NCBI GenBank assembly: GCA_021796435.1
Contig: JAJYXM010000016.1
Span: 1,429,580-1,493,579 of the forward strand
Length of the DNA: 64,000 nt
Reading direction: 5' to 3'
From: a bacterium
GTDB lineage: Bacteria; Patescibacteriota; Patescibacteriia; 2-12-FULL-60-25
A program made the position numbers and the translations under genes. Below, piece by piece: positions 29,113 to 32,983 of the stretch. The notes under the pieces were generated by a model. The model saw only the letters and a program-made list of their open reading frames with translations, had not been told where the DNA came from and did not search any database. Each line of letters opens with the position of its first letter. Position 1 is the stretch's first letter.

Positions 29113-29901
29113 TCAAGCAGCGCGTCCTTTGTATGGTTCGGAGACGGACCACAAACCATCGAACATCGTAGAAAGCAGATTATGGACTTCATCTGATTCG
29201 ATAAGGATCGCAGAGTGGGTCTTGAGAGACGTAATGATGGCGGCTTTATTGTCGAACAGGATGACGAGAGATTCGAACTTGCCATGCAAGGCGTCCGGCA
29301 GATAACGCGGATTGCGTTGGGCGATCTCCTGTTTGGTCAAAAGGCGATCATGCTCGGCCGTGCCGCGTTCCCACAGAGAACGGGCAACGATGCCACGAGC
29401 TTCGCGTGACTCCAAGAAATATTTCCTATAGTTCGGCTCGGATTCGGAGAAGAAGTTCTTACGCGGCGCAAGGATGTCCCAGCGACGTGACTTACAGTAC
29501 AAGGCTTCTTCGACCACCGCCTTTACGCCGTCTACACCATCGAATTGCGAGACGCGGACAGAGCCCGCAGCTTCATTGGACAGCTGCGACTCAAGAAGCG
29601 GCAGGGCGGAAAGGATCTTCTGCTTCTGTTCCTGTAGACGGCCGATTTCGCGTTCGATTAGATGCTCGAATTGGCGCGGTTTGGTCATGACGAACTCGAG
29701 ACGTCTGGATGTACCGTGCTTAGCAGCCAAACCTTTCTGCATCAACGTCTCGAGGGCGTGATAGACAGTGGGACGTTTGATGCGCGTTTCCGTCGTAAGT
29801 TCATGCACACCGATCGAAGGGCGCGCCAAGCCGGCAAGATAGACGGCGATTTCTGTCTTGGATAAACCCAGCTCGGCGAGGATGGTTTGGATGTCCTGCA
29901 T
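29113..29901 (-). CDS. TrmB-family transcriptional regulator
   Basis: 262 residues. N-terminal winged helix: IQTILAELGLSKTEIAVYLA, then RIKRPTVYHALETLMQKGLA; then a coiled-coil linker (ERLQEQKQKILSALPLLESQ region) and an effector-like domain. TrmB regulators usually respond to sugars, and multi-copy versions are very common in Patescibacteria. The start is fixed by the promoter: the -10 box ends 8 bases before the ATG, so the mRNA is nearly leaderless. Target is unknown; the divergent TANGO2/coa operon is the nearest candidate (untested). Confidence 0.9.
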   Translation of the reverse strand: MQDIQTILAELGLSKTEIAVYLAGLARPSIGVHELTTETRIKRPTVYHALETLMQKGLAAKHGTSRRLEFVMTKPRQFEHLIEREIGRLQEQKQKILSALPLLESQLSNEAAGSVRVSQFDGVDGVKAVVEEALYCKSRRWDILAPRKNFFSESEPNYRKYFLESREARGIVARSLWERGTAEHDRLLTKQEIAQRNPRYLPDALHGKFESLVILFDNKAAIITSLKTHSAILIESDEVHNLLSTMFDGLWSVSEPYKGRAA

Positions 29902-29909
29902 ATATTTGG

Positions 29910-29938
29910 ATAATGGCTCTGTTTCGCACTAGTGTCAA
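29910..29938 (-). promoter_or_regulatory. Promoter of the TrmB-like gene, almost leaderless
   Basis: TTGACA (29933-29938), 17-base spacer, CATTAT (29910-29915). The ATG at 29901 is 8 bases beyond the -10 box. Confidence 0.8.
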
Positions 29939-30067
29939 TCGCTCTTTGGAACAAAGAAGCTACTTTTGTTGAAGAATCTACGAGTGTCCATAATCGGTTA
30001 TGAACATATATTAAACATAATCAGGTGCCAGGCTAGCCTTTAGATGCACCTTCACAACGAGGCCAAC

Positions 30068-30853
30068 ATGTGTACGCTCATCGTGCTGAAAGACGTGTTC
30101 GAGAAATACCCGCTCGTCGTGGCGTCGAACCGCGATGAGAACCCAAAACGGCCATCCGCTCCCCCTTTGTTTTGGTTCGATGACCCGGAAATCTATGCGC
30201 CACGCGACTTAGTGCGAGGTGGGACATGGATCGGCGTTAACCGGCAAGGTGTGATAGCGGCTTTGACCAATCTGGATACGGTGGCGCACCGCAGAGGATG
30301 CAAATCGCGAGGGCAGTTGCTGGTCGAGATGCTTGACCTGGGAGCAGCCGACCAAGTCGATCGCCTCTTGGCTGGCGACATAGACAATGTCGGCGAGTTC
30401 GGTTCCACAAGAGAGCCCTACAACCTCCCGGTTGAATATAACGGACTGAATCTCGTGGTCGCGGACAGCGAATGTTGCACCTTGCTCGTGAACGACGGGA
30501 ACTCGACCAAGATAACAAGATTGGGTTCCGGTGCGCATATCATCACGGGCTACGGCGTGGGGCCTGACCACGCACCGCGAGCCAGCGAGATCACACGGCG
30601 CTTGCGGGATATCAAAGATCCGTCACCCGAGGGACTGGATAAGCTACTCAACTTCCACGCGGACGGGAGGCCGGAAGCCGCGGCGTGCGTGCATGATCCA
30701 AACGAATACCACAAGACCATCTCGTCCATGATCGTGCGTGCGGACAGGAATTGGACGAGGTTCGAGACGTGGTTCCGCGCCGGTCCGGCATGCAGCGGAC
30801 CGTTCGATGAACGTTTCGATGTCGAGTTCAGAAAGAACGGGAGCGAGTCATGA
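30068..30853 (+). CDS. NRDE/TANGO2-family protein
   Basis: 261 residues. The mature start is MCTLIVLKD with the Ntn-hydrolase-like Cys2, and the family signature NRDE stands at residues 21-24 (ASNRDENPKRPSAPPLFW). RGGTWIGVNRQGVIAALTN is the second conserved block. I chose 30068 because GAGG lies before it and the family begins with MC; the open frame from 30044 is not supported. The TANGO2 family has no agreed reaction; human TANGO2 has been linked to coenzyme A/lipid metabolism. Here its stop overlaps the start of coaB (ATGA), a direct physical link to CoA biosynthesis. Confidence 0.9.
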   Translation: MCTLIVLKDVFEKYPLVVASNRDENPKRPSAPPLFWFDDPEIYAPRDLVRGGTWIGVNRQGVIAALTNLDTVAHRRGCKSRGQLLVEMLDLGAADQVDRLLAGDIDNVGEFGSTREPYNLPVEYNGLNLVVADSECCTLLVNDGNSTKITRLGSGAHIITGYGVGPDHAPRASEITRRLRDIKDPSPEGLDKLLNFHADGRPEAAACVHDPNEYHKTISSMIVRADRNWTRFETWFRAGPACSGPFDERFDVEFRKNGSES

Positions 30854-31539
30854 ACATCCTCATCACAGCCGGTTCGACCGAAGTACCGATCGACAAAGTG
30901 CGTGTCATCTCCAACATCTTCCGCGGACGCACCGGAGTCGAGATCGCGCGGACCGCAGCCAATTTGGGGCATCGGGTCACATTACTCCATTCGCACCAGA
31001 TGGGCGTGGCCGACCAATTGCTGCGCGATCCGACGACGTACTTCAGCAATCCCATCGAGCTCTGCAGGTTCCGGACGTTCGACGATCTGGCCGAACGCAT
31101 GGAAGAGAAAATCCGCGGCGAGAAGTTCGACGCCATCATCCACTCGGCCGCAGTCAGCGACTATCGCGTCGCGTCCATAGGCGCCGCGGTCGGGGCCGGA
31201 GACGAGAGGCTGAATGAAGCCGAGACGGCAAACAAGATCGCATCGAACCACTGCTCGCTCCTCTTGGAGCTTGTGCCTACCGAGAAACTCGTGGACAAGA
31301 TCCGCAAGCCGTGGGGGTTCAGAGGCAAGCTCGTGAAGTTCAAGCTCCAAGTCGGCATCACAGACGAAGCACTCATCGACATCGCTTGCCGAAGTCGGCG
31401 CGCTTCGGAAGCCGACATCATCGTGGCCAACTGCCTGGAATGGGCCAAGGAGTATGCGTACATCATCGGCGAGGACGACAGGGCAGAACGCGTAGTGCGC
31501 CAGAAGCTGCCCAGAACATTGCTCAGGAGGCTGGGATGA
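30850..31539 (+). CDS. coaB: Phosphopantothenate-cysteine ligase, CoaB
   Basis: 229 residues. Joins 4'-phosphopantothenate and cysteine in CoA synthesis. Family features: MNILITAGSTEVPIDKVRVI and RGRTGVEIARTAANLG at the N-terminus, FDAIIHSAAVSDYRV, KFKLQVGITDEALIDIA, and ADIIVANCLEW near the end. In most bacteria this domain is fused behind CoaC; here it is a separate protein and comes first. Translationally coupled upstream to the TANGO2-like gene and downstream to coaC. The split is like the separate enzymes of some archaea and eukaryotes. Confidence 0.85.
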   Translation: MNILITAGSTEVPIDKVRVISNIFRGRTGVEIARTAANLGHRVTLLHSHQMGVADQLLRDPTTYFSNPIELCRFRTFDDLAERMEEKIRGEKFDAIIHSAAVSDYRVASIGAAVGAGDERLNEAETANKIASNHCSLLLELVPTEKLVDKIRKPWGFRGKLVKFKLQVGITDEALIDIACRSRRASEADIIVANCLEWAKEYAYIIGEDDRAERVVRQKLPRTLLRRLG

Positions 31540-32084
31540 ACATCCTACTAGGAGTGACTGGTTCGGTCGCAGCTGCGCTGACGCCGCAACTCGTGCGTGA
31601 GCTCGCAACACTCGGCGAAGTCCAGATTGCGGCAACACGTTCGTCACTATATTTCTGGCAGCCGCACAAGCTCGACTGCCGGACATGGCTCGAGGACGAT
31701 GAGTGGCCTGGCATGGGCTACGCCAAAGAGCAGAGCATCCCGCACATCGAGCTGCGTCGCTGGGCAGACGTCATGCTGATCGCGCCGCTCACGGCCAACA
31801 CGTTGGCCAAGCTGGCTCACGGTTTGGCCGACAACCTACTGACCTGCACGGCGCGGGCCTGGGACCGCGAGAAGCCGCTCATCATCGCGCCGGCCATGAA
31901 CACGTTCATGTGGCAGCATCCTGCGACCGCCGAACATATCACGACACTCAAGCGCTGGTACGGCGGAATATTCACACTCGTGGAGCCGATCGAGAAACGG
32001 TTGGCTTGCGGCGACACCGGCATCGGCGCCATGGCGCGGATCGAAACAATCGTACAAGCCGTCAGCCGAGCGCTCGAAAGGTAG
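31536..32084 (+). CDS. coaC: Phosphopantothenoylcysteine decarboxylase, CoaC
   Basis: 182 residues, FMN-dependent decarboxylase that makes 4'-phosphopantetheine. Family landmarks: MNILLGVTGSVAAALT, IPHIELRRWADVMLIAPLTA (catalytic His in the first part), NTLAKLAHGLADNLLT, APAMNTFMW (the conserved PAMN), and ACGDTGIGAMA. AGGAGG precedes the ATG, which overlaps the coaB stop. The typical CoaBC fusion is split and reversed in order here. A terminator follows. Confidence 0.88.
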   Translation: MNILLGVTGSVAAALTPQLVRELATLGEVQIAATRSSLYFWQPHKLDCRTWLEDDEWPGMGYAKEQSIPHIELRRWADVMLIAPLTANTLAKLAHGLADNLLTCTARAWDREKPLIIAPAMNTFMWQHPATAEHITTLKRWYGGIFTLVEPIEKRLACGDTGIGAMARIETIVQAVSRALER

Positions 32085-32107: not shown

Positions 32108-32139
32108 TGACCTGCGATGAAACAATCGCGGGTCTTTCT
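32108..32139 (+). terminator. Terminator of the TANGO2-coaB-coaC operon
   Basis: GACCtGCGAT-gaaaca-ATCGCgGGTC followed by TTTCTATT, 23 bp after the coaC stop. Confidence 0.85.
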
Positions 32140-32185: not shown

Positions 32186-32983
32186 TCAGAGCACGTCTTC
32201 GTGCTTGAAGTAGGGGTCAGCATGAGCGCTCGAGCGCTTGAGCCAAGCGAACTTGAACTTGCGCGAGATGATGCTCAAAATGCCGAAAGGCACTGACGCG
32301 AGGAACACATAGTCCGCAACCAGCGGAGCGTCCTTCCAGTGCAGATAGAACGGGACGAAGGCGAGAAGGCCGAAATCACGGACCATCGTCTTGATCTTCC
32401 CGATCCAGGAGGCGCGCGATTCCTGCGGCGGGCTCTTGGCTGCTTCGGCGCGCAGACGATCCATGAACGGCATGTCGCGCGGGTAGCGCAACAGCGCCGG
32501 GATGGTCGTGATGGGCTCACGGAAAATGATGCCGTACAGCTCAGGCAGGACGACGATGAGGACGACCCAGAGCTTGATGCCCCCCAGAGCGCAGAAGATG
32601 ATGAGCGGCGGCAGGCCGCGCAACTTGTCGGCAAGCGGGTCAAGCCACTTTCCTATCCAGCGATCGAGTGCACTGCGCACGATGCCAGCCTCGATCATCG
32701 CGGCGTTCATCTTGCCGTCGAAGATATCGAGCAGACAACCGATCGCCACAAGCTGCACGCCCCAATATGGACTGAGCAGAAAGAACACCGCGAACCCCAC
32801 CCAAGAGAAGTGCAGGCCCCACAGCGTGATCCAGTCCGGGCTGCACCCGGGCAAGCGACTGATCTGCGCCAGCCGCTTCTTCCTGAAGAACAGGAACATG
32901 AAGACAGCGATGGCCATGCCGGGCGCGAGGAGGATCGGAAGCTTCAACTCCCAATCCAGCGAAGAAATGAGTAGCTCGTCCAT
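32186..32983 (-). CDS. CDP-alcohol phosphatidyltransferase-like membrane protein
   Basis: 265 residues with about six membrane helices. The CDP-alcohol phosphotransferase signature is DGx2ARx8Gx3Dx3D. Here only part is clear: LLDIFDGKMNAAM, then a longer insert, then GKWLDPLADK (G-x3-D-x3-D intact). The AR pair is replaced. These enzymes move a phospho-alcohol (glycerol phosphate, inositol, choline) to an acceptor; the substrate here is unknown, and the loss of the AR site makes activity uncertain. GGGG stands upstream of the ATG. Large charged C-terminus (SAHADPYFKHEDVL). Confidence 0.6.
   Translation of the reverse strand: MDELLISSLDWELKLPILLAPGMAIAVFMFLFFRKKRLAQISRLPGCSPDWITLWGLHFSWVGFAVFFLLSPYWGVQLVAIGCLLDIFDGKMNAAMIEAGIVRSALDRWIGKWLDPLADKLRGLPPLIIFCALGGIKLWVVLIVVLPELYGIIFREPITTIPALLRYPRDMPFMDRLRAEAAKSPPQESRASWIGKIKTMVRDFGLLAFVPFYLHWKDAPLVADYVFLASVPFGILSIISRKFKFAWLKRSSAHADPYFKHEDVL

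Follow-up and report, generated by a model that had tools for sequence, protein, structure and literature searches.

The three-gene block and its proteins

The window, the whole 64,000-nucleotide stretch of a patescibacterial genome that was analysed, carries on its forward strand a compact block of genes encoding a TANGO2/NRDE-family protein and the stand-alone enzymes CoaB and CoaC (Table 1). The original prediction that these genes overlap one another by ATGA was borne out, the open reading frames (ORFs) and both overlaps being present in the sequence. An alternative in-frame ATG at 30044 would lengthen the TANGO2 ORF and is the less likely start, because the family requires a Met-Cys N-terminus and the start at 30068 supplies Cys2. 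A sigma-70-like site lies on the minus strand (29938-29910) of the divergent intergenic region, the number of such sites being close to shuffle expectation, and the hairpin after coaC is plausible by position rather than by count, since two terminator-like sites were found in the region vs 2.3 expected in shuffles. The window is part of a 1.52-Mb contig of a 1.63-Mb genome, which rules out a stray small contig as an explanation. The Pfam and NCBIfam annotation of the window ORFs shows no heme gene adjacent to the unit, and PADLOC returned no defence-system match for TANGO2, CoaB or CoaC. Two tRNA genes, candidates for tRNA-linked integration, lie 8 kb away from the block.

Table 1. Features of the TANGO2-coaB-coaC locus, in window positions
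Feature	Position	Strand	Details and basis
TrmB-type regulator, divergent; possible regulator of the unit	29113..29901	-	Pfam TrmB 39.5 bits
Divergent intergenic region, presumed promoters	29902..30067	.	166 bp; position
TANGO2/NRDE-family Ntn-hydrolase-like gene	30068..30853	+	261 aa; Pfam PF05742 92 bits (cut-off 22.6), AlphaFold2 model, residue mapping
ATGA stop/start overlap TANGO2-coaB	30850..30853	+	sequence
coaB, stand-alone phosphopantothenate-cysteine ligase	30850..31539	+	229 aa; Pfam DFP 89.3 bits (cut-off 22), invariant residues
ATGA stop/start overlap coaB-coaC	31536..31539	+	sequence
coaC, stand-alone phosphopantothenoylcysteine decarboxylase	31536..32084	+	182 aa; Pfam Flavoprotein 123.2 bits (cut-off 22.7), invariant residues
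Terminator-like hairpin 3' of coaC	32109..32134	+	10-pair stem, T-rich tail; consensus match only

TANGO2 deficiency is a life-threatening human disorder; the reaction of the protein is not agreed upon, and roles in heme, lipid and coenzyme A (CoA) metabolism are disputed. The window TANGO2 is a predicted N-terminal-cysteine hydrolase, whose substrate and reaction we infer below. Its AlphaFold2 model (mean pLDDT 91.6) has the Ntn alpha-beta-beta-alpha fold and matches human TANGO2 with a Z of 25.2 (rmsd 2.7 over 233 residues, 23% identity). Among enzymes with an established reaction, it comes closest to acyl-CoA:isopenicillin N acyltransferase (Z 19.8). The NRDE motif (N21, R22, D23 and E24) is invariant in 41 alignment rows, and Cys2, R28 and R81 are likewise kept. 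With the catalytic set of cysteine Ntn-hydrolases taken from PMC13044924, human Cys2, Asn25, Asp27 and Lys/Arg166 correspond to C2, N21, D23 and R171, whereas the oxyanion-hole Asn157 is replaced by Gly161. The other cassette TANGO2s, i.e. those encoded with coaB and coaC, have G, G, P, Q or N at this position, and 65 of the 78 non-cassette rows have Asn. Because of the replacement, hydrolysis by cassette TANGO2s may be weak or altered, and we have lowered the claim of an active cysteine Ntn-hydrolase for the window protein. Human TANGO2 thus shares with it the whole-length fold, Cys2, Asn25, Asp27 (in NRDE), Arg32 and Arg88, but differs at Asn157, at Lys166 (Arg171 here) and at Lys56, which has no equivalent residue; the window gene differs further in sitting with coaB and coaC. 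Sulfate is bound on Arg32, Lys56 and Arg88 of human TANGO2 in the structure described in the passages retrieved from PMC13044924, and two of these residues are invariant here, so that cassette TANGO2s possibly hold a phosphate site. The Shewanella homologue HtpA, of the same Pfam family by the account in the retrieved part of PMC10470608, is reported there to act in heme trafficking and cytochrome c, whereas the annotated neighbours of the window unit include no heme gene.

Among NCBIfam models, the window CoaB and CoaC are nearest to the split streptococcal-type enzymes and to CoaBC, and both score below the equivalog cut-offs (CoaB: TIGR02114, 87.4 against 217.2 bits, and PRK06732, 105.1 against 265; CoaC: TIGR02113, 135.1 against 261.4 bits, and TIGR00521, 142.6 against 219.7). 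Judged by these scores, CoaB is a divergent family member. Residues R18, N22, A101, D104 and K129 of CoaB, which we take to be the phosphopantothenate-binding residues with the lysine, are invariant in a 14-row alignment including E. coli Dfp, as are H70, N122 and C158 of CoaC in 11 rows, presumably the key functional His, PAMN Asn and ACG(D) Cys. Streptococci and enterococci also have CoaB and CoaC as separate proteins in the order coaB-coaC (TIGR02114 and TIGR02113), and the Enterococcus faecalis pair overlaps as in the window, with identities of 28% for CoaB and 44% for CoaC. The bifunctional CoaBC (Dfp) of most bacteria has the same two domains and conserved key residues, but it is fused in the order CoaC-CoaB, and no TANGO2 lies alongside E. 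coli dfp. Viral CoaB proteins are nearer to that of the window than the E. faecalis enzyme is (identity up to 56%), and plasmid matches reach only about 30% at most. In trees, viral sequences and those of G423 and G415 form a 13-row clade with the window CoaB (support 100/97), and a 25-row clade composed likewise holds the window CoaC (support 100/98). Besides the window, the clade consists of large viral contigs and a few related bacteria with small genomes, the label 'viral clade' being limited by sampling, as cellular relatives were drawn from the window's own phylum.

Distribution in bacteria and viruses

TANGO2 was found in one of 379 sampled genomes of the phylum, that of the window. In a class sample of 380 genomes it was matched at E<=0.001 in eight and above the cut-off in five, namely G423, G463, G572, G585 and the genome of the window; the other three matches, weaker, partial and within frames of about 590 aa, were dropped. 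DFP/CoaB passes its cut-off in six of the 144 class genomes searched and in nine of the 379 from the phylum, and TANGO2 is absent from the same-genus genomes of the class sample, G314 and G500. Given this rarity and the absence of TANGO2 from its congeners, the TANGO2-coaB-coaC unit looks acquired. Co-occurrence of DFP and TANGO2 in the class sample has a p of 0.004 with the window and 0.069 without it, and only the latter is fair, the window having been selected on account of this co-occurrence. The stretches of G463 and G572 that were read hold TANGO2 and no coa genes, and the G585 contig is too short to tell.

Enrichment of NRDE-family genes beside coa genes across bacterial genomes had been proposed as a check on the original prediction, and as a general bacterial rule the neighbourhood fails. 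Among GTDB contigs at least 585 TANGO2 relatives were matched, and a profile search of flanks of up to 6 kb around the best 80 of them found coaB or coaC near none (0/80); both 6-kb flanks were whole at 51 loci, at least 3 kb was available on each side at 58, and the positive controls worked. The TANGO2, CoaB and CoaC profiles derive from small sets, the window sequences among them, and CoaB and CoaC profiles without the window again gave 0/80.

The viral survey led to another picture. The first scan, with the window TANGO2 alone as query, found nothing; the window CoaB retrieved one contig (50% identity) and the window CoaC six (44-55%), while the CoaC alignment retrieved 24 contigs and the CoaB alignment 11, only one of them new. 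Among the 24 CoaC contigs, coaB lies beside coaC in 23 and an intact TANGO2 directly upstream of coaB in four (L132, L135, L137 and L148). Their order, TANGO2-coaB-coaC, is that of the window, so the window gene order is not due to chance; a short ORF separates TANGO2 from coaB in L137, and no other gene family intervenes. In a further contig, L140 (1/24), a C-terminal TANGO2 remnant occupies the same place upstream of coaB. L132, L135 and L148 form one phage group with further neighbours in common, and L137 and L140 another. Across the full 24 records there are four TANGO2 matches, all within the block. A TANGO2 scan of viral contigs with cassette-derived patterns, which bias the outcome, returned just the four cassette contigs; cellular-derived patterns returned six others (L165-L170), none with coa genes within 8 kb (0/6). 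The overlap expected by chance is about 8e-5 contigs, by a hypergeometric estimate over 2.9 million contigs that ignores their relatedness and lengths.

Large phages carry cofactor genes, and the cassette resembles the metabolic genes of huge phages in this respect, yet the viral CoaB, CoaC and TANGO2 proteins that were tested match no PHROGs v4 family. Eight of the 24 viral records have a Terminase_6N match, seven of them above the cut-off. The coaB gene of L197 is separated by about 650 bp from the gene for a major head protein and also has a head maturation protease close by. CoaC matches in INPHARED reach 43% identity, in records named Enterococcus and Listeria phage, many of which resemble host DNA; LR756501 and LR756500 were opened, and the former, a 735-kb phage record, has a CoaC-M23 fusion overlapping coaB.

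In the TANGO2 tree the window protein joins G463 and G572 (99/91) and the viral TANGO2s form one clade (100/96), with G423 apart. Nevertheless, a forced single group of cassette TANGO2s was not rejected by the AU test (p 0.34 with G423, 0.367 without it). As one cassette origin is not rejected, the TANGO2-coa linkages may not be independent, and on these trees we claim no independent origin.

Companion genes and host CoA chemistry

TANGO2 is one of several partners of the CoaB/CoaC pair. An M23-fold domain occurs at many of the 24 viral loci (fused to CoaC in eight, nearby in five, a fragment in one), by a profile built from five of the loci that it later found; Pfam M23 is above its cut-off for L129, L131 and L133. 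The model of this partner superposes on M23/LytM domains (Z 15.1, rmsd 2.4 over 121 residues), and its invariant H31, D35 and H129 are presumably metal ligands. E87 and M127 occupy two positions that we take to be catalytic His in LytM, which makes the partner unsure as an amide hydrolase. M23-like and TANGO2 partners occur together at none of the 24 loci, and the Fisher p of 0.006 overstates their exclusivity because the loci with M23 and those with TANGO2 belong to different CoaB lineages as well; five loci have neither.

Among bacteria, G423, of the same class, has the order coaB-coaC-radical SAM-TANGO2, and G041 the order CoaE-CoaD-transglutaminase-CoaB-CoaC, each with a divergent TrmB-type gene (at loci L111 and L184, respectively) whose likeness to that of the window lies mainly within the HTH part. 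In G419 the order is coaC-transglutaminase-coaB; a homologue of its transglutaminase-like protein, with no Pfam hit, stands beside coaC-coaB in G230, and in G415 an amidohydrolase gene precedes overlapping coaB-coaC. In the viral contig L151, coaB and coaC overlap a CoaD-CoaE fusion gene. Such companions, e.g. CoaD/CoaE in G041 and L151, tie the CoaB/CoaC clade to CoA chemistry. Pantetheine-building genes thus occur in large phages, one of which apparently encodes all steps from phosphopantothenate to CoA; no report of either was found in the literature searched, in which no title pointed to phage CoaB/CoaC and no paper was found on viral phosphopantothenate auxiliary metabolic genes or joining TANGO2, hydrolase and pantetheine.

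The pathway from pantothenate to CoA in the host genome is incomplete as judged from searches for CoaD, CoaE and, as pantothenate kinase (PanK), CoaX. CoaE and CoaX were undetected (no match to PF01121 or PF03309), and the best CoaD match, 22.5 bits to TIGR01510 with a cut-off of 103.3, covers 37 residues inside another nucleotidyltransferase-like ORF and is not convincing. An ACPS-type phosphopantetheinyl transferase (PPTase) was found in none of the 18 records searched, own genome included. CoaB and CoaC can therefore not complete CoA here via the bacterial enzymes searched. They probably yield phosphopantetheine, which a partner or host would finish; alternatively, the missing steps are divergent.

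Possible roles of TANGO2 beside CoaB and CoaC

The block, in a bacterium and in very large bacterial viruses, offers a concrete and testable link between TANGO2 and coenzyme A. CoaB and CoaC, which together form the cysteamine end of pantetheine, stand exactly beside TANGO2, and the recurrence of the block narrows the candidate TANGO2 substrates to a handful of accessible compounds. The link itself is well supported, and the window TANGO2 probably acts in pantetheine/CoA metabolism, with its exact reaction a matter of inference. The role in CoA metabolism advanced in the original prediction therefore holds in part: the same order in four viral contigs and a rearranged one in G423 speak for it, and the 0/80 cellular and 0/6 other viral loci, together with undetected CoaE and CoaX and a weak CoaD, speak against its broad form. 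The viral connection, the interchangeable partners and the missing last CoA steps go beyond that prediction.

As a tentative leading interpretation, with a chance somewhat short of even, the three genes would form a horizontally moving module for building or salvaging pantetheine, of a type that large phages carry as well. In such a module, CoaB would join 4'-phosphopantothenate to cysteine and CoaC would decarboxylate the product to 4'-phosphopantetheine. In (phospho)pantetheine that is old, damaged or acylated, TANGO2 would most likely cut the amide, or a thioester, of the cysteamine end, and the pantothenate-side product could then be re-armed with fresh cysteine by CoaB and CoaC. The last CoA steps would be left to host enzymes, both for a cell without CoaD/CoaE and for the phages. 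The gene block and its recurrence, the companions and the Ntn fold speak for the module; against it stand the 0/80 cellular and 0/6 other viral loci, the oxyanion-hole replacement, E87 and M127 of the M23-like partner, the possible common origin of the linkages, the undetected PPTase and the five viral loci with neither partner. That TANGO2 catalyses this specific end replacement is rather doubtful, and it is distinctly unlikely that the target of the TANGO2 family at large is the cysteamine end of pantetheine and acyl-pantetheine compounds, phages and tiny symbiotic bacteria carrying the family as the 'remove' half of a cassette in which CoaB and CoaC are the 'rebuild' half. If true, human TANGO2 would serve CoA salvage as an amidohydrolase or thioesterase, and its acyl-CoA binding and the benefit of pantothenate in TANGO2-deficient patients would be explained. 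In the passages retrieved, pantothenate helps TANGO2 deficiency models and patients (PMC12782551; PMC11179719) and a CoA-salvage defect has already been suggested (PMC11179719). Term searches of the retrieved text of PMC7824862 and PMC7162821 gave no match, and that of PMC7674155 matched one passage on acyl-CoA dehydrogenase.

TANGO2 might instead free CoA or pantetheine by thioester deacylation, or cysteine by amide hydrolysis, while CoaB and CoaC top up phosphopantetheine. This would still be a CoA-linked role, but no end-replacement cycle. Binding of acyl-CoA by human TANGO2 through NRDE, reported in the retrieved part of PMC11867700, and a fold nearest to an acyl-CoA-using acyltransferase favour deacylation, although the same authors state there that acyltransferase activity was ruled out; the transglutaminase-like partner in G041, G419 and G230 could equally release cysteine. 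We hold this account to be rather unlikely. It is quite improbable that CoaB and CoaC of this clade have been repurposed to place decarboxylated cysteine on another carboxylate, with TANGO2, M23-like, radical SAM and transglutaminase-like proteins as tailoring enzymes. The carboxylate would belong to a small molecule or peptide of the phage or episymbiont. The own genome, without detectable CoaE, CoaX, PPTase or convincing CoaD, the CoaC-M23 fusions and the radical SAM gene in the G423 block are all in keeping with repurposing, but CoaD and CoaE accompany the pair in G041 and L151, and the CoaB residues presumed to bind phosphopantothenate show no variation between E. coli and the window.

A chance neighbourhood in the window genome, for which it might speak that 378 of the 379 phylum genomes sampled lack TANGO2, is extremely improbable in view of the overlapping reading frames and is refuted by the recurrence of the link in viral contigs and G423. 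It is also very improbable that TANGO2 is a heme-handling protein or other passenger that hitch-hiked incidentally beside coaB and coaC in one phage lineage. The reported heme-trafficking homologue HtpA (PMC10470608), the lack of the link in 80 cellular relatives and the unrejected single origin fit such a passenger, whereas the minute chance expectation for co-occurrence and the order kept while flanks differ between L132/L135/L148 and L137/L140 do not. Nor do the degrading TANGO2 remnant at the same place in L140 and the arrangement in G423, where TANGO2 lies 3' of the radical SAM gene rather than 5' of coaB.

Variants of the TANGO2-coaB-coaC unit

The decayed TANGO2 remnant lying directly before coaB in the viral locus L140 suggests that TANGO2 was lost there while coaB and coaC were retained. 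The phage of L151 appears to encode all steps from phosphopantothenate to CoA. In the bacterial genome G041, the position of the window TANGO2 is occupied by a transglutaminase-like protein and a TrmB regulator is divergent to the operon; in genome G423, CoaC bears a Cys-rich N-terminal extension and a radical SAM gene separates coaC from TANGO2. The CDP-alcohol phosphatidyltransferase gene is a neighbour of the window unit, its membership being unsupported.

Features of the unit, its variants and its neighbour
Feature	Location	Remarks
TANGO2 C-terminal remnant, decayed	L140:6637-6831	immediately upstream of coaB
coaB-coaC-CoaD/CoaE fusion	L151:2780-5195	viral, 104 kb; genes overlapping
CoaE-CoaD-transglutaminase-like-CoaB-CoaC operon	L184:5982-10253	genome G041
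CoaC, then radical SAM gene	L111:8741-10642	genome G423
CoaC-M23/LytM-fold fusion	L187:5001-6065	735-kb phage record
Viral TANGO2	L132:5019-5741
CDP-alcohol phosphatidyltransferase gene	window 32186-32983	convergent with unit; Pfam 39.3 bits

CoaC fused to an M23/LytM-fold domain

Such a domain is also joined to CoaC in viral loci L129, L131, L134, L136, L138, L145, L149 and L150. The presumed metal ligands are kept in these fusions, and the catalytic histidines, at the positions we assume for them, are missing. The combination is odd, uniting a cytosolic CoA enzyme with the fold of cell-wall peptidases.

Viral TANGO2 genes

The C-terminal part of the L132 protein matches Pfam DUF4879 (27.9 bits; cut-off 22.7), hinting at a hidden relationship. 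A second phage TANGO2 group (L165-L170) resides in large GC-rich phages, with no coa genes nearby and a downstream gene judged GroEL-like by eye.
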